Below are positions 3,805-29,813 of a stretch of DNA of 32,681 nt, piece after piece. The translations under genes and the position numbers were made by a program. Location of the stretch: positions 1 through 32,681 of IMG/VR virus record IMGVR_UViG_3300037541_000387, one strand, 5' to 3'. Position 1 is the stretch's first letter; every line of letters starts with the position of its first letter. This DNA is from a virus. The notes under the pieces are model-generated. The model worked only from the letters and a program-made list of their open reading frames with translations, was not told where the DNA came from and searched no databases.

Positions 3805-4624
3805 AAGTGTTATACCAAGTTATTATTGCCTTAGTGTCTGAAGTAGCTCCACTATCTACATATAATGCAAGATTGTTATTTCCAGGAGCTAAAGTAATAA
3901 AGTTAGAGTCAGATGTTACAAATTGATAAATAGATACACCTTGCTGAGTGACTGTTTGTGTAGATCCAAACACTTCTATAATTTGCGCAGCGGTTAAAGT
4001 TAATCCGTCCACCTTAAAGATATCCCCAGTTGTTTGATTAAGAATAGTAAACCCTTCACCAGGGCCTATAATCTGTATATCTACTGTAGCATATCCATTC
4101 CCAGCATTGGCTAAAGTTCCTGACCCTGATACAGTTCCTAGTAAGACAGGCAATGTCCAAGGCAAAACTGCCCCTGTCGGCACTCCTGCTTGTTCAAGAG
4201 TAATAGAGTTTAAGTTTCCATTAGTAATCGTTCCAGAAGGCACATATATTGAGAAACCTATAGTCTGATATGCTCCTGTCCTCTCACCTTCATTGACACC
4301 AGTTCTAAGATATCCCTCAAAAGTATAAACTTGACTATCCTCAGTGGTATAAGCAAAACTTACTATCTGATTAGTGTTTGGATATATAGCTTTTAATAAA
4401 GCCTGTCTTTTGATATAAAAGTCATCTATATCTGTACCTCTGACCGCTATATCTATGCTTATCACCTTACTATGAGTGTAATTGGATACAAACCCTGCCT
4501 TATTGCTTTGAGGTATGTTATATGAGGCAAATTCAAGCCCACTAATTAGAAGCCCCTCTATATTGGCTAAATGATACTGACCTCCTATTGTAGCTGTAAT
4601 TCCATTAAATGCTAAAGTTTCCAT
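3791..4624 (-). CDS. Distal tail protein (Dit)
   Basis: A 277-residue protein directly after the tape measure gene, with only one base between them. The N-terminal part (about residues 1-125) has the beta-sandwich signature of Dit proteins: an early 'l.g......Y.I......', then VRGTDIDDFYIKRQALLKAIYP, then TFEGYLRTGV. A galectin-like beta domain with alternating Gly and Thr follows to the C terminus. Dit forms the hexameric ring that starts the tail tube and carries the baseplate. Position and pattern agree; no search was run. Confidence 0.65.
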   Translation of the reverse strand: METLAFNGITATIGGQYHLANIEGLLISGLEFASYNIPQSNKAGFVSNYTHSKVISIDIAVRGTDIDDFYIKRQALLKAIYPNTNQIVSFAYTTEDSQVYTFEGYLRTGVNEGERTGAYQTIGFSIYVPSGTITNGNLNSITLEQAGVPTGAVLPWTLPVLLGTVSGSGTLANAGNGYATVDIQIIGPGEGFTILNQTTGDIFKVDGLTLTAAQIIEVFGSTQTVTQQGVSIYQFVTSDSNFITLAPGNNNLALYVDSGATSDTKAIITWYNTYVGI

Positions 4625-10281: not shown

Positions 10282-10445
10282 ATTAACTTATTTCTTAATT
10301 CCTTTAGCTTAAGAGCATAATCTAAAGCTTCTTTCCCTCTAGCTCCAAATAATAATAAAGTATAATGTCTAATTTCTTTATTTATTTTAGCATTATGCTT
10401 ATCTACCCAATTATATAAACTATCTACTTGTTTAGTGATTTTCAT
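10278..10445 (-). CDS. Small helical protein, 55 residues
   Basis: An open frame of 55 codons starting MKITKQVDSLYNWVDK and ending KLKELRNKLI. It is charged and probably helical; no family is recognised. Its TGA overlaps the ATG of the glycosyltransferase (ATGA). It has its own promoter (10474-10502) and an untranslated leader identical to that of the 114-residue gene at 19667. It is therefore probably a real gene and the first of the internal transcript. Confidence 0.75.
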   Translation of the reverse strand: MKITKQVDSLYNWVDKHNAKINKEIRHYTLLLFGARGKEALDYALKLKELRNKLI

Positions 10446-10466
10446 ACTTGATATGATTAATTATTA
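10441..10466 (-). repeat. Conserved 5' leader and start, copy 1
   Basis: A 26-base stretch running from the probable transcript start into the start codon. It is identical to 19663-19688. The core next to the start is TCATATCAAGTATG. No Shine-Dalgarno sequence is present, so the leader may itself be the initiation signal. Confidence 0.8.
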
Positions 10467-14604: not shown

Positions 14605-15777
14605 TTAAAATCCAAATGGTTTATTATTATATATCTTACCATCTGTTGCCTTTTCAAGTTCCATATAGTCTATACAATACCGCATAGCATCCATAATATG
14701 GTCTTTGACTTTGATAGGCATATCCATAGTCTGGCCATCTTTATTCTTTTGCCACCTGTAGAATTGTAACTCTTTGATCATATTGATTGAGGTATTAGTT
14801 ATATGTATCTTTTTAACTTTAACTGCATTTATACCTCTAATAACTGAGCCTTTATTCTTATAGGCTGGTTTAATATTGTATCCTGCCATATAAATGTCAT
14901 TTATCTTACCAGGGTCTTCACTATCTCCTACTATAACCGCGTCTCTAGGTATGTTTAGCTCTTGTAGCTTTCTTATAATCTCATCTGAATTAAGTCCTGA
15001 TTGATATAATAGCTCTTGCACATATAACACATTATCTAATTCTCTTATTTCTACAATAGCAGTTTGATTGTTAAATCCCCAGTCAGCTCCATAATACCGT
15101 CTATCATAGCTTTCTGGTAAAGTCTCACATCTTTGCCAATGGGTATAGATTAAATCTTCTGATACTCCCCTTTCTCCTAATCCAAACACTCTCCAAAAGT
15201 TTGGATCTAACACTTTATACCTTTCTATCTCATCTATCACCTCCTGAGGTAAAAATGGGTTATCCCTGTAGGTTGATTTTATAACTACACAGTCATCTCT
15301 GGTCATAACATCATCATAAATCCAGTGGAATGAGTCTGAGGGGTTGAAGTCTAATGTAATCTCCCCTGTTGTTCTCATAGCTAACTGCCTCCAGTCTTCT
15401 AGGGATAATTCATTAGCCTCATTAAGCCACAAATAGTCTCTCTTAGCTCCTCTTTTCTTCTGAGGGTTATCCATACCAAGGAACTCTACCAAGTTGCCAT
15501 TAAGGTTATATGTCTTTAGTGTTTTGTTATGGTTCTTGCTATCGTATAAGTTCCAGTTAATAAGTATTTCAAAGAAGTCTCTAGCTACAGTTAAATCTAA
15601 AGCAGGGGATGTCTTTCTTACAATAGATAAAATCTTACCTTTCTCTTTTAGAAGTTTAAGGATATATTTCTGAGCTATAGAATAAGTCTTAGAACTTCTA
15701 GAGCTTCCTTGATTGACTATAATTCTTTTATTAGCCTCCCAGTTCTTTTGGAATACTACTGTCGCTTGTATCTTCAT
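14605..15777 (-). CDS. terL: Terminase large subunit
   Basis: A 390-residue packaging ATPase-nuclease of the PBSX/SPP1 sort. The Walker A motif is GSSRSSKT (residues 24-31). The Walker B region YLWLNE (115-120) carries the catalytic Glu at 120. The C-terminal RNase H-like nuclease has acidic residues in YYGADWGF, VIVGDSEDPGKI and DHIMDAMRYCIDY. The gene overlaps the NUMOD1-like gene by ATGA. Repeat copy f is read here as KATDG near the C terminus. TerL cuts concatemers and pumps DNA through the portal. Confidence 0.9.
   Translation of the reverse strand: MKIQATVVFQKNWEANKRIIVNQGSSRSSKTYSIAQKYILKLLKEKGKILSIVRKTSPALDLTVARDFFEILINWNLYDSKNHNKTLKTYNLNGNLVEFLGMDNPQKKRGAKRDYLWLNEANELSLEDWRQLAMRTTGEITLDFNPSDSFHWIYDDVMTRDDCVVIKSTYRDNPFLPQEVIDEIERYKVLDPNFWRVFGLGERGVSEDLIYTHWQRCETLPESYDRRYYGADWGFNNQTAIVEIRELDNVLYVQELLYQSGLNSDEIIRKLQELNIPRDAVIVGDSEDPGKINDIYMAGYNIKPAYKNKGSVIRGINAVKVKKIHITNTSINMIKELQFYRWQKNKDGQTMDMPIKVKDHIMDAMRYCIDYMELEKATDGKIYNNKPFGF
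14637..14651 (-). repeat. Dispersed 15-bp repeat, copy f
   Basis: AGGCAACAGATGGTA on the minus strand, inside terL (AAG GCA ACA GAT GGT AAG) and 35 bases before the portal ATG. Confidence 0.9.
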
Positions 15778-19322: not shown

Positions 19323-19667
19323 TTATTTTTTCCAATCTGGGGTTATTATACTATCATAAATCCTCATAACAGCTTCTTCTGGAGGATATGATCTTATAGT
19401 TGCTATTACATAATCTTCAATTGCTTTTGCTCTTTCTAGATTTTCAATAACTTGTGGCTCACATTTTTGAGTTACAGTTTCTTTAACAATTTTAGGTACT
19501 TCTACTTTCTTTTCAACTTCTACAATTTTTTCTATTTGAACTTCTTTTATAATTTCTACAGGTACTTCTTTTACAACTTCTACGGTCTTTGTTTGGCTTT
19601 TACCTATATTATATGCTCCTATAACTAAACCTAAACTTATTGTAGTGAATATTAGTGATTTCTTCAT
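19323..19667 (-). CDS. Membrane-anchored protein with a KEV repeat stalk
   Basis: A 114-residue protein. A signal or anchor helix (residues 4-20, SLIFTTISLGLVIGAY) is followed by a low-complexity charged stalk of VEV/KEV repeats (about residues 28-67: TVEVVKEVPVEIIKEVQIEK...) with one Cys (QKCEP). A helical C terminus completes it. The stalk is like those of spanins and cell-surface spacers. It is the first gene of the leftward unit, with a promoter at 19696-19724. Its function is not known. Confidence 0.65.
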   Translation of the reverse strand: MKKSLIFTTISLGLVIGAYNIGKSQTKTVEVVKEVPVEIIKEVQIEKIVEVEKKVEVPKIVKETVTQKCEPQVIENLERAKAIEDYVIATIRSYPPEEAVMRIYDSIITPDWKK

Positions 19668-19688
19668 ACTTGATATGATTAATTATTA
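19663..19688 (-). repeat. Conserved 5' leader and start, copy 2
   Basis: Identical over 26 bases to 10441-10466 and ending in the start codon of the 114-residue gene. A shorter related leader (ATCAAGTATG preceded by AATAACTAACCA) is at the 29717 start. Confidence 0.8.
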
Positions 19689-19695
19689 CTTTTTT

Positions 19696-19724
19696 ATTAT
19701 AACATATTTTTGACAAAATTACAA
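19696..19724 (-). promoter_or_regulatory. Leftward promoter of the glycosyltransferase unit
   Basis: Minus strand TTGTAA (19724-19719), a 17-base spacer, then TATAAT (19701-19696) preceded by TGT, an extended -10. RNA should start near 19689. It interleaves with the rightward promoter at 19710-19738. Confidence 0.7.
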
Positions 19725-19738
19725 TAATATGATATTAT
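19710..19738 (+). promoter_or_regulatory. Rightward sigma70-type promoter
   Basis: TTGACA (19710-19715), a 17-base spacer and TATTAT (19733-19738). Expected RNA start near 19745. The -35 lies within the spacer of the leftward promoter. Confidence 0.8.
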
Positions 19739-19744
19739 ATATTT

Positions 19745-19894
19745 AATCACAGCTGAAGTGAATAAAACAGGGCAAGATAAAAAGGTTCAAAACTTATCTA
19801 TACAAAATAACTTGAATTAGAAAAGTCTTTTGACGAACCTCCTGAGAGCAATCTCGGGGTTTTGCCAAAGGACTTTTTGGTTTAATAAAAAACA
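19745..19894 (+). ncRNA. Structured leader or small RNA ahead of the 64-residue gene
   Basis: The stretch from the predicted RNA start to the 64-residue gene has no open frame of note. It ends in a long hairpin (19821-19877). If the hairpin terminates, most RNA is a transcript of about 135 bases; if it is passed, the RNA is the leader of the next gene. A smaller possible pairing is GATAA with TTATC near 19775-19797. Confidence 0.5.
19821..19877 (+). terminator. Long terminator-like hairpin with GCAA loop
   Basis: A 12-bp outer stem (AAAAGTCTTTTG at 19821-19832 with CAAAGGACTTTT at 19866-19877, one G-U). An inner stem (AACCTC/GGGGTT) and GAGA/TCTC are closed by a GCAA tetraloop at 19848-19851. 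A run of T follows (CTTTTTGGTTT). It could be a terminator or an attenuator for the gene beginning at 19895. Confidence 0.65.
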
Positions 19895-20089
19895 ATGAAT
19901 AGAAATCAGGCATTCCCAATAATATATAGAAAGCTAAAAGAAAGCGGTGTAACAATGGATAGTTTATCTTTGATTGAAAGATTAAAATTATTTGAAACTA
20001 AAGTTGAAAATGGAGATATTCAAGATATTCATATAAAAGCAATAGTTAAAAAACTTGTAAGCAATAATAAAGGCTATAAATCTAAATAA
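19895..20089 (+). CDS. Small unknown protein, 64 residues
   Basis: A 64-residue mostly helical, charged protein (MNRNQAFPIIYRKLKESGVT...). There is no recognised family. Codon use is like the neighbouring early genes, and its start has no Shine-Dalgarno sequence. It is preceded by a strong promoter and the long hairpin at 19821-19877, which suggests attenuation. As the first rightward gene it may be an early host-takeover or regulatory protein. Confidence 0.6.
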   Translation: MNRNQAFPIIYRKLKESGVTMDSLSLIERLKLFETKVENGDIQDIHIKAIVKKLVSNNKGYKSK

Positions 20090-20483
20090 GGTTTGTGGCT
20101 TTTTAATTCTTTACAGTTCTACGAAGGCGTAGACAAGCTACTTACAAACACCTATCTAAGTGAGGTTTACTCAAAGTCTGCTCACTAAAATAAAACAAAC
20201 TTAATACTCTTGCCGATATGAGTGGTTGGGGTGGAGTGTAAGAACTTCACTTAAATTCTCCCCAGCTATAGCATATAGAGAGTAGATGTACAATTCTGAT
20301 AAGATATATCTTGGAGAAATTGGAACATATTTTGAATAGTAAAATAAAGATCATACCTTTAGGAAGTAACATCTCCACTATAATATAAGATATGGGATAT
20401 ATCAGGAATAATTAGATTAGGTAATCACATATAGGATAACTTCTAATAGTAGGAGAATAAGATTGTTTTGCTTAATTTTAGAA
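20090..20483 (+). other. Gene-free stretch with predicted RNA folds
   Basis: No convincing gene. The first half can form stems: GTTTGT 20091-20096 with ACAAAC 20144-20149 enclosing TCTACG/CGTAGA (20118-20133); AGTGAG 20159-20164 with CTCACT 20181-20186; and TGGGG 20227-20231 with CCCCA 20260-20264 enclosing AGTG/CACT. The rest (20270-20480) is AT-rich and I see nothing in it. The folded half may be the 3' part of the 64-residue transcript or an independent RNA. Confidence 0.4.
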
Positions 20484-20512
20484 TTGACAATTATAGATTT
20501 TGGAATTATACT
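20484..20512 (+). promoter_or_regulatory. Promoter of small-RNA unit 1
   Basis: TTGACA (20484-20489), 17 bases, TATACT (20507-20512). RNA start is expected near 20519, exactly where a 6-bp hairpin begins. Confidence 0.85.
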
Positions 20513-20518
20513 TTTATT

Positions 20519-20600
20519 GTAACTTTTTGTTAGTTAGTTACACCCTAGACAATATAATATGCTGGGTATTCCCGTAGTGGACTATCTGGTTTATTTTTTT
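20519..20600 (+). ncRNA. Small RNA 1 (about 80 bases)
   Basis: Starts at the 5' stem GTAACT (20519-20524)/AGTTAC (20536-20541). ACCC (20542-20545) can pair with GGGT (20564-20567). A weak GTAG/CTAT hairpin follows, then TTTATTTTTTT (20590-20600). There is no open frame. The last stem is weak, so the 3' end is uncertain. Its T-run leads into the promoter of unit 2. Confidence 0.55.
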
Positions 20601-20609
20601 ATAGATATG

Positions 20610-20618
20610 TGTTATACT
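20610..20618 (+). promoter_or_regulatory. Extended -10 promoter of small-RNA unit 2
   Basis: TG-T-TATACT at 20610-20618. The -35 position (20590-20595, TTTATT) is weak and lies in the T-run of unit 1. RNA start is expected near 20625, exactly at the first stem of unit 2. Confidence 0.65.
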
Positions 20619-20624
20619 TTTATT

Positions 20625-20740
20625 ACCACAGAATTAGTGAGCTGTGGTTACTTGATATTGATGCTGGTCATCACTCCCCTCTTGGTCTGATGACATTTAA
20701 TTCAATGAACATTTACTCCCTTTGGGGAGTTTTTGTTTTG
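20625..20740 (+). ncRNA. Small RNA 2 (about 115 bases)
   Basis: 5' stem ACCACAG (20625-20631)/CTGTGGT (20642-20648) at the very start. A second stem is GTCATCA (20667-20673)/TGATGAC (20688-20694) with a 14-base pyrimidine-rich loop. A terminator follows. The loop's ACTCCCC (20673-20679) can also pair with GGGGAGT (20724-20730) of the terminator, an alternative fold that would remove it. I saw no similarity to a known RNA family. Confidence 0.65.
20715..20740 (+). terminator. Terminator of small RNA 2
   Basis: ACTCCC (20715-20720), TTTG loop, GGGAGT (20725-20730), then TTTTGTTTT. The T-run contains the -35 box of the next promoter. Confidence 0.85.
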
Positions 20741-20766
20741 ACAATTTATAATATATTTGATATACT
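20738..20766 (+). promoter_or_regulatory. Promoter of small-RNA unit 3
   Basis: TTGACA (20738-20743), 17 bases, TATACT (20761-20766), starting inside the T-run of the preceding terminator. RNA start near 20773. Confidence 0.85.
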
Positions 20767-20772
20767 AACTAT

Positions 20773-20842
20773 GCTTTATAAGATTTACGAAAGATAACAT
20801 CTTTCTACAAAGACTCTGAGGGAACAGAGTTTTTTGTTTTTT
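20773..20842 (+). ncRNA. Small RNA 3 (about 70 bases)
   Basis: A 7-bp stem GAAAGAT (20789-20795)/ATCTTTC (20799-20805) with a three-base loop is followed by the terminator stem ACTCTG/CAGAGT and a T-run. Only about 15 bases are unpaired at the 5' end. No open frame exists. Promoter and terminator both look strong, which supports a discrete small RNA. Confidence 0.7.
20813..20842 (+). terminator. Terminator of small RNA 3
   Basis: ACTCTG (20813-20818), loop AGGGAA, CAGAGT (20825-20830), then a long T-run interrupted by one G. Confidence 0.85.
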
Positions 20843-20849
20843 TAAAACA

Positions 20850-20870
20850 TTTGACCAGTAAACAGTCAAA
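20850..20870 (+). promoter_or_regulatory. Operator-like inverted repeat, copy 1
   Basis: TTTGAC, 9 bases, GTCAAA. It is 9 bases upstream of the -35 of the early promoter. A near-identical copy, differing at two spacer bases, is at 24529-24549 before the second early promoter. Confidence 0.75.
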
Positions 20871-20879
20871 CATAAATAT

Positions 20880-20908
20880 TTGACAAAATGTTAAATTTAT
20901 GTTATTAT
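20880..20908 (+). promoter_or_regulatory. Early promoter 1
   Basis: TTGACA (20880-20885), 17 bases, TATTAT (20903-20908). The spacer and flanks are nearly the same as in early promoter 2 (24564-24592). The leader contains two CGAG motifs and TATCAAGTA before the first gene. Confidence 0.85.
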
Positions 20909-20992
20909 ATATTTATACAGATTGAGACGCCGAGTATATAGTTTACCGAGCCAATCCTAATCAGTATCAAGTATCAGTTAATCACTAAACAT

Positions 20993-21325
20993 ATGAGAGC
21001 TTTTGGAGAACCTAGTTATAACAGTGACTTAGATGAGTGGCAAACTAATATTGTTTACACTCCAGACCGTGATGATGATGGTGAATATGAAATAGTAGCC
21101 TCAGAGCTTAATGAGCGATTACAAAACAAAGCTATTCCATTCCCTTGGGTTATAGCAAATTTTTATAGCTACCTTTACGATGGTAAAGATGTAGTAGTAC
21201 ATCCTAATAGAGTATGTAGCCAGTTATACGATATGATAGCAGTTGTAACTTGGCAGGATCTAATAGATATGCAAATTGTAACTGAGACTGAACTGTTCAA
21301 TTATTTAGATGAATTAAGCAAATAA
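20993..21325 (+). CDS. First early gene, unknown 110-residue protein
   Basis: A 110-residue acidic protein (MRAFGEPSYNSDLDEWQTN...). The middle has DRDDDGEYEIVASELNERLQ, and the end is QIVTETELFNYLDELSK. No family is recognised. It is the first gene of early promoter 1, with one base between it and the ERF gene, so a role in recombination or takeover is possible. The ATG is 85 bases after the -10, in a leader shared in part with the second early unit. Confidence 0.65.
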   Translation: MRAFGEPSYNSDLDEWQTNIVYTPDRDDDGEYEIVASELNERLQNKAIPFPWVIANFYSYLYDGKDVVVHPNRVCSQLYDMIAVVTWQDLIDMQIVTETELFNYLDELSK

Positions 21326-21326
21326 T

Positions 21327-21935
21327 ATGACAAACATATATCCACAATTAGCAAAGTTCCAGCAATCAGTTGGAACTATAACAAAAGACAGTACTGGACA
21401 TAATTATAAATATGCAAGTTTTGATAAAATTGTAGAGACTATTACTCCTTTTCTTAAAGAATGTAATCTAGGGTTTACACATACCTTTGATACTTCAATG
21501 GACGGTATAGATATTATTTGTACACTGTTTAGCACCAAAGAAGATGTTGAACCTATAGTTTCTCGAGCTACACTGCCTAAAGAAATGATGAGAGGTATGA
21601 ATGCTTCTCAATCAGTTGGAGCTAGTATAACTTACTTTAGAAGATATACATTATCTGCAATATTAGGGCTTGTGACTGATGAAGATACCGACGGAGTAGC
21701 AAGTACACCCCCAGCTAAAGAAAATACTTCACAAGGGCAAAATTCAAACGATGACAAGCCTTGGCTTAATGTTAAGTCTGAGCAATTTGCTAAAGTCTTA
21801 GAGCAAGTAGGTAAATACAGTCCAGATGACCTTGTAAAAATGGCTCGTATGAAATACAAGGTAAGCAAGACAACAGAACAGGCTATTCGAGATAGCTACC
21901 GAGACAATTATGAAGAAGTAATAATAGTAGATTAA
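21327..21935 (+). CDS. erf: ERF-family single-strand annealing protein
   Basis: A 202-residue protein of the ERF group. The N-terminal domain (about residues 1-125) shows KYASFDKIVETITPFLKECN, then LGFTHTFDTSMDGI, then SQSVGASITYFRRYTLSAIL and GLVTDEDTDG. The pattern 'G...TY..RY.L...lgl..d.D.DG' is the family signature. A Ser/Asn linker and a short helical C terminus follow. Erf anneals single strands during recombination and helps circularise or repair phage DNA. It is followed by an SSB-like gene, a usual partner. Confidence 0.85.
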   Translation: MTNIYPQLAKFQQSVGTITKDSTGHNYKYASFDKIVETITPFLKECNLGFTHTFDTSMDGIDIICTLFSTKEDVEPIVSRATLPKEMMRGMNASQSVGASITYFRRYTLSAILGLVTDEDTDGVASTPPAKENTSQGQNSNDDKPWLNVKSEQFAKVLEQVGKYSPDDLVKMARMKYKVSKTTEQAIRDSYRDNYEEVIIVD

Positions 21936-24528: not shown

Positions 24529-24549
24529 TTTGACCAGCAAGCAGTCAAA
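24529..24549 (+). promoter_or_regulatory. Operator-like inverted repeat, copy 2
   Basis: TTTGAC, 9 bases, GTCAAA. Copy 1 at 20850-20870 differs only in two spacer bases. It is 14 bases upstream of the -35 of early promoter 2. Confidence 0.75.
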
Positions 24550-24563
24550 GTTTATAAAAACAT

Positions 24564-24592
24564 TTGACAAAATGTAAAATTTATGATATTAT
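24564..24592 (+). promoter_or_regulatory. Early promoter 2
   Basis: TTGACA (24564-24569), 17 bases, TATTAT (24587-24592). Its leader has two CGAGCC motifs and TATCAAGTA, as after early promoter 1. Confidence 0.85.
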
Positions 24593-24688
24593 TAAAATGT
24601 AAGGTTAAGAGATACAGCGAGCCGTATATATAGAAACGAGCCGACACCATCAAATAACCTCAACAATATCAAGTAATACACTAAACTT

Positions 24689-24814
24689 ATGAGAAACTGG
24701 CTATTTACTCCATTCAACGACCTAGAAGACCGTCCAATAGATGTTATATCTTTTTTTGTACTATTACCAGCTTTGGTATATGTAGCTTATATGTTATTAG
24801 AAATATATGGATAA
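24689..24814 (+). CDS. Small membrane protein, 41 residues
   Basis: A 41-codon frame (MRNWLFTPFNDLEDRPI...) with one hydrophobic helix (VISFFVLLPALVYVAYMLLE). It is the first gene after early promoter 2, and its end overlaps the next gene by 8 bases. No family recognised. The start context is AAACTTATG, as at other genes here, without a Shine-Dalgarno sequence. Confidence 0.6.
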   Translation: MRNWLFTPFNDLEDRPIDVISFFVLLPALVYVAYMLLEIYG

Positions 24815-29739: not shown

Positions 29740-29813
29740 TGGCAAAGACGGTAGGAATTGAACCTACAACAATAGTTTTGGAGACCATCGTTATACCATT
29801 TAACTACATCCTT
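29740..29813 (-). tRNA. tRNA-Trp (anticodon CCA)
   Basis: A complete 74-base cloverleaf on the minus strand with encoded CCA. The acceptor AAGGATG (29813-29807) pairs with CGTCTTT. The D stem is GTTA/TAAC, with GG in the D loop (AATGGTA). The anticodon stem is ATGGT/ACTAT with loop CTCCAAA. The T stem is GTAGG/CCTAC with loop TTCAATT. CCA reads only UGG, so it does not recode UGA. It lies in the leader of the gene at 29717, 22 bases upstream. Confidence 0.9.

Follow-up and report, generated by a model that had tools for sequence, protein, structure and literature searches.

Most of what is known about antisense control in phage development comes from a small number of coliphages. The P4 CI RNA is a small phage immunity RNA derived from the leader region of the operon that it controls, and it causes premature transcription termination. 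The sar RNA of P22 is encoded on the strand opposite its target. By base-pairing at the start of a phage regulatory gene, this small RNA keeps that gene from being translated (PMC12197685). The OOP RNA of lambda is a short phage RNA that has its own promoter and acts on a phage decision gene (PMC12197685). In the c4 RNA of P1 and P7 (RF01695; target motif c4-a1b1), the complementary sequences lie in loops (PMC12197685; P1 immI, PMC8198154; Weinberg 2010, PMC2864571). The c4 RNA binds close to the ribosome binding site in the leader of ant, and heteroimmunity has its basis in the c4 sequence (PMC12197685, PMC8198154).

The virus record examined here (32,681 bases, hereafter the window) has structural genes on the minus strand up to 19667, including those for terminase (14605-15777), portal, major capsid, and tape measure. 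Early genes, with an ERF single-strand annealing protein among them, follow on the plus strand from 20993 onward. A Shine-Dalgarno-like sequence is present at 3 of the 55 genes. The nearest deposited terminases are 36% identical and belong to Bacteroides phages, capsid matches are at 26-29% with mixed hosts, and a terminase search of genome contigs gave no host identification. About ten relatives, most of them fragments, were gathered by scanning for the early-leader motif and by early-protein searches; the leader-motif matches L065, L066, L068, and L071-L074 were left out as unrelated. No Phage_integrase match occurs in 12 records (the window and 11 relatives), some of which are fragmentary, and other integration or plasmid lifestyles are possible.

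The original prediction placed three tandem small-RNA units directly 5' of the first early promoter. This arrangement is borne out, with stems that are conserved and co-vary. The promoters are also as claimed, with TTGACA-17-TATACT in units 1 and 3 and an extended -10 in unit 2, and each unit ends in a hairpin and a T-run. The features of the three units are as follows.

20484-20512, + strand: unit 1 promoter, TTGACA-17-TATACT, 11/12 consensus matches
20518-20599, + strand: predicted unit 1 RNA (ends approximate), two hairpins and a T-run, from folding and homologues
20519-20541, + strand: unit 1 hairpin, GTAACT..AGTTAC
20545-20552, + strand: unit 1 single strand, CTAGACAA
about 20556-20593, + strand: unit 1 terminator hairpin and T-run
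20610-20618, + strand: unit 2 extended -10, TGTTATACT; TGNTATAHT is kept in all unit-2-type copies
20625-20648, + strand: unit 2 hairpin 1, ACCACAG-AATTAGTGAG-CTGTGGT; stem pairs vary across copies
20634-20640, + strand: unit 2 loop element A', TTAGTGA, antisense to leader boxes
20649-20660, + strand: unit 2 element B', TACTTGATATTG, single-stranded, antisense to leader box
20667-20694, + strand: unit 2 hairpin 2, loop CCCCTCTTGG; stem replaced and loop motif kept in L035
20715-20737, + strand: unit 2 terminator, ACTCCC-TTTG-GGGAGT, and T-run
20738-20766, + strand: unit 3 promoter, TTGACA-17-TATACT, 11/12 matches; its TT is supplied by the unit 2 T-run
20773-20842, + strand: predicted unit 3 RNA, hairpin GAAAGAT-AAC-ATCTTTC and terminator, from folding

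Compared with shuffled sequences, folding was strongest for unit 2 (z = -3.9; 0 of 200 shuffles), followed by unit 3 (z = -2.5) and unit 1 alone (z = -1.0). The promoter count in the wider region is unexceptional (17 sites vs 13.3 in shuffles), whereas terminator-like sites are exceptional (three vs 0.6 expected). The combination of an extended -10, a hairpin with a 7-18 nt loop, and a terminator was found at 14 sites in 210 kb of relatives, 13 of which are these RNAs or their neighbors, and at no site in 20 shuffled windows. That the region holds no open frame was nearly right: a mechanical 62-aa GTG frame (20609-20797) crosses unit 2, but all sense frames are interrupted in the copies of L035, L039, L064, L040, L063, and L076. 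Conservation is thus not coding, and a hidden protein over unit 2 was rejected. With Rfam at gathering thresholds, tRNA alone was matched in the whole window, and no known RNA family matched in L078. A sub-threshold match to STnc230 on the opposite strand (E 0.65; 24.5 bits vs a 50-bit cut-off) was dismissed as chance. The exact unit 2 core has no match in 84,980 genomes, and no similar DNA was found in plasmids or deposited phages.

Conservation of the stems in relatives had been set beforehand as the test on which the proposal could fail. The stems are kept, and they co-vary in L035, L036, L039, L040, L063, L076, and L078. Aligned with MAFFT, the full set of copies had too many gaps to build a covariance model from, so the comparison of stems was made by hand. 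Six stem positions of hairpin 1 each have several Watson-Crick pair types and no mismatch across copies, and the hairpin 1 and terminator stems are maintained via compensatory changes. L006 is 95% identical over 20507-20739, compared with 77% in the adjoining early gene; it has another sequence on the left flank and lacks unit 3. The block conserved with L006 begins at the unit 1 -10 box, and the L006 unit 1 promoter has another sequence of the same form (TAGACA-17-TATAAT). Homologues of unit 1 are present in L006, L036, and L078, its promoter is replaced by an extended -10 in L036/L044 and L078, and the RNAs of L063 and L076 have the same terminator hairpin. Units 1 and 2 retain promoter, hairpin, and terminator despite sequence drift. 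Outside near-identical contigs, unit 3 has a single, strongly diverged counterpart, in L078; it is absent from L006, L035, and L036. On this comparative evidence, which settles the question at the level of sequence, units 1 and 2 (20484-20737) are genuine small-RNA genes.

Upstream of the units, at 19710-19885, a promoter (TTGACA-17-TATTAT) is followed by a leader with a long hairpin and then a 64-aa ORF. A diverged counterpart of this leader is present in L006 (~1955-2140), with stem changes that are apparently compensatory. This element is possibly an additional, fourth RNA unit, or else an attenuator.

The three units differ in their targets: unit 2 has targets in its own genome, unit 1 only in a relative, and for unit 3 none was found. 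The early and late regions in which matches to unit 2 lie contain the following features.

20880-20908, + strand: early promoter 1, TTGACA-17-TATTAT
20919-20957, + strand: conserved leader motif at the 5' end of the early mRNA, GATTGAGACGCCGAG...CGAGCCAATCC
20962-20973, + strand: target box B of early leader 1, CAGTATCAAGTA, predicted to pair with B' of unit 2
20982-20988, + strand: early leader 1, target box A (TCACTAA), 5-11 nt 5' of the start codon (ATG, 20993), predicted to pair with A'
20993-21325, + strand: first gene of early operon 1, without Pfam or PHROG match
21327-21935, + strand: ERF single-strand annealing protein gene, directly after the first early gene
24564-24592, + strand: early promoter 2, TTGACA-17-TATTAT
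24666-24684, + strand: early leader 2 boxes, ATATCAAGTA (24666-24675) and CACTAA (24679-24684), 5 nt before the ATG at 24689
19667-19676, - strand: late leader with a B box overlapping the start codon (ATATCAAGTATG) and no A box
10445-10454, - strand: second late leader, same B box overlapping the start codon, a weaker candidate target

Two boxes in leader 1 have their complements, arranged in the correct order, in the hairpin 1 loop of unit 2 (UUAGUGA) and in the strand that follows (UACUUGAUAUUG). This leader (start 20993) reads CAGUAUCAAGUA-UCAGUUAA-UCACUAA-ACAUAUG, and both segments fit one antiparallel complex. Early leader 2, located 3.7 kb from leader 1, reads AUAUCAAGUA-AUA-CACUAA. Pairing energies with unit 2, in which accessibility entered only through the choice of loop and single-strand segments, are -29.6 for leader 1 and -25.6 for leader 2, the two best of 55 start regions. 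Dinucleotide-shuffled RNAs did as well in 4 of 2000 cases for leader 1, and in 0 of 2000 for leader 2 and for both leaders together. A two-box scan of both window strands likewise returned leaders 1 and 2 as the best non-self matches, each ending 5 nt before the ATG, and the outcome was the same in the relative G001/L043. Within the window, the box TATCAAGTA is confined to the two early leaders, two late leaders, and, as its complement, unit 2. Unit 2 might also touch late genes, via the box overlapping late start codons; the late leader at 19667-19676 is a weaker candidate target because it has no A box. The loop motif of hairpin 2, CCC(C/T)TCTTGG (window 20667-20694), is kept in L035 (~4476-4510) on a wholly different stem, and hairpin 2 found no convincing partner among the start regions.

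Several other elements accompany these leaders. A conserved structured motif, GATTGAGACGCCGAG..TATA..CGAGCCAATC, is located at the predicted early transcript starts (window 20919-20957 and 24599-24662), with a closing stem of different sequence in early leader 2. It is also found in L039, L040, L063, L064, L075, L076, and L078, and could be an mRNA-stability or antitermination element. Just 5' of both early promoters (20849-20869 and 24529-24549) is a palindrome, TTTGACCAG(T/C)AA(A/G)CAGTCAAA, which is absent from this position in L006 and is likely an operator for a phage repressor or activator. Late operons (window 19667-19676 and 10445-10454, both on the minus strand; L078, L024, and L027) have a common leader ending in ATCATATCAAGTATG or similar.

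Nearly every early leader found in relatives has such an RNA gene just upstream, and loop and leader change together. The loop and leader sequences are UUAGUGA and UCACUAA in the window and L006, AUAGUGA and UCACUAU in L035, GAAGUG and CACUUC in L039, L064, L069, and L075, GUAGUUA and UAACUAC in L040, UUUAGUGUUU and AAACACUAAA in L063, and GUGUUUU and AAAACAC in L076. The second segment follows suit in L076 (AACUCGAUA / UAUCGAGUU), L063 (UACUCGAUA / UGUCGAGUA), and L078 (a perfect 14-base match). The summed pairing energy of cognate combinations beats 20,000 of 20,000 re-pairings for 10 RNAs, and all but 2 for the 7 distinct RNAs. When the best start region was compared with those of shuffled elements, the shuffles did as well in 1 of 300 cases for unit 2 of the window, in 0 of 300 each for G006 sRNA-A, G007, and G011, and in 1 and 2 of 300 for G008, with a weaker result for G006 sRNA-B (9 of 300). 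In L035, the paired elements are visible, yet the leader is not the top start region of its own genome and is not significant alone. The pairing was first seen by eye and the elements were defined afterwards, with some matches already known; protection against post-hoc choice comes from the permutations, the shuffles, and the use of independent relatives, although the latter share some ancestry. Gene structure, conservation, complementarity, and the joint change of loop and leader were all established by computation, and the predicted pairing of unit 2 with the early leaders is strongly supported.

These patterns also bear on where the RNAs act. The original prediction had allowed that they bind host mRNA or sequester a host protein, for which unit 2 offers no support. 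It is very unlikely that the tandem RNAs are aimed mainly at the host (mRNAs or protein), with the leader matches being secondary: such an aim would fit the lack of a target for units 1 and 3 in this contig and the retention of the hairpin 2 loop motif, for which no partner was found, but the fastest-varying parts of unit 2 track the leader of the phage itself, and a sequence dictated by a host target would not be expected to do so. G006 has two such RNAs, each beside its own matching leader, and the loop energies for the cognate vs the other leader are -14.9 vs -3.4 and -8.5 vs -4.7; the second segment is interchangeable between the two leaders. The RNAs of G006, G008, and G011 each match two or three leaders. 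The several matching leaders in G008 and G011 are distant, which argues against unit 2 being a 5' attenuator, that is, the upstream leader of the early operon acting in cis by termination or readthrough instead of in trans. Unit 2 does lie directly 5' of the early operon on the same strand, and its hairpin 2 loop ACTCCCC could pair with the terminator GGGGAGT. A strong early promoter nevertheless separates the unit 2 terminator from the leader, and the second leader 3.7 kb away has the same boxes, making attenuation quite unlikely.

Taken together, these findings indicate that unit 2 is probably a self-contained trans-acting antisense RNA gene that blocks translation of early genes. It has the attributes of a trans-acting phage antisense RNA, namely a separate promoter and an intrinsic terminator, no conserved reading frame, and complementarity to start regions kept by joint change of RNA and target. 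A predicted RNA of ~113 nt would be transcribed from the extended -10 promoter and ended at the intrinsic terminator. Its hairpin 1 loop (A') and single strand (B') would pair in antiparallel fashion with leader boxes B, then A, and the duplex, covering the stretch 5-11 nt before the AUG, would stop ribosomes from starting. Early proteins, including those of the operon with the ERF recombination protein, would thereby be held down. The unit has its own promoter beside the early promoter, so its RNA could build up in infection, and its use may be early shut-off; alternatively, should the phage be maintained in the cell, the RNA may confer immunity by repressing newly arriving phages that share its specificity. 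An earlier suggestion that the RNAs guide the early-to-late switch came close in that unit 2 is antisense to start regions of early operons; the repression itself we infer, as we do the production of the RNAs and their pairing in the cell.

Repression is favored over activation because of the position of box A, which is the sole basis for this choice. The RNAs might instead pair with the leaders and activate translation, e.g., by opening a 5' leader stem that holds part of box B, and in several phages the basal helix of the conserved leader stem does take up the 5' portion of box B in predicted folds. Box A, however, is mostly unpaired in the predicted leader folds, leaving nothing obvious to free, and the sequence immediately 5' of the AUG would lie within the duplex; activation is therefore unlikely. 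Since these phages hardly use Shine-Dalgarno sites, the placement of the ribosome, and thus what the pairing would block, is uncertain.

Unit 1 encodes a second RNA built like that of unit 2 but differing in specificity. Its candidate pairing sequence in the window is GUCUAG...UAACUAAC, and no start region of the window or L043 matches it above chance. Of all RNAs tested, the G004 homologue of unit 1 matches start regions most strongly (0 of 300 shuffled elements): GUCUAGCUU and UAACUAACUAAC just 5' of one ATG match this homologue, as do two further leaders. No significant target was found in their own contigs for unit 1 and unit 3 of the window, unit 2 of G004, and unit 1 of G012. A role of unit 3 as a decoy for unit 2 was dropped, as the possible pairing segments are in the wrong order for a simple duplex. 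In L044 (3530-3551, 2712-2746, and 7824-7860), TAAC repeats that match its unit 1 loop stand directly before the ATG of several early genes, possibly reflecting a larger unit 1 regulon. A tRNA-Trp (CCA) gene is located at 29740-29813 on the minus strand of the window, and also in L043 and L042; the gene start just after it reads TAACTAACCAATCAAGTATG and resembles unit 1 targets. Tentatively, these RNAs may be a fast-diversifying family in which every loop-leader pair sets a group for immunity or early control, with one or more orthogonal pairs per phage; units without a home target, such as units 1 and 3, would then be aimed at the leaders of competing relatives as a small RNA arsenal between phages.

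One small intergenic module thus recurs in uncultured phages and reaches several operons per genome; its architecture stays while its pairing sequences turn over with the target. With this natural collection of cognate RNA-leader pairs, reporter assays could directly test antisense immunity in phages and its specificity. Moreover, the signature of an extended -10, a loop antisense to the next leader, and a terminator could find similar switches in phages without Shine-Dalgarno sites, where control at start sites is little understood.

No description of this antisense RNA module was found in the literature searched, which covered few subscription journals. The unit RNAs would work like the c4 RNA of P1/P7 yet are outside that family: the C4 antisense RNA model (RF01695) matches none of the 11 records of the group at E <= 10, and has no match in window 19700-21000 at E <= 5. 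Among the other systems, sar is also a small phage RNA pairing at the start of a phage gene, but the RNA described here lies 5' on the same strand and its complementarity is short and discontinuous. OOP shares the short length and own promoter, but is antisense to cII and encoded opposite it. The P4 CI RNA is similarly a small phage RNA by the leader region of the operon controlled. Whereas c4 is processed from the transcript of its target operon, a separate promoter and terminator are present here in the sequence. Further unlike c4, there are two or more predicted target operons per RNA, the units are in tandem, and the genomes hardly use Shine-Dalgarno sites. The predicted targets here are early operons that encode an ERF protein but lack a recognized antirepressor (ant) with icd, although the first gene of the target operon has no Pfam or PHROG match, so it could be an unrecognized antirepressor. 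As with c4, the RNA is phage-encoded, lies 5' of its target operon on the same strand, and is predicted to pair at the leader start region; in both cases, complementary sequences are in loops and specificity varies among related phages.
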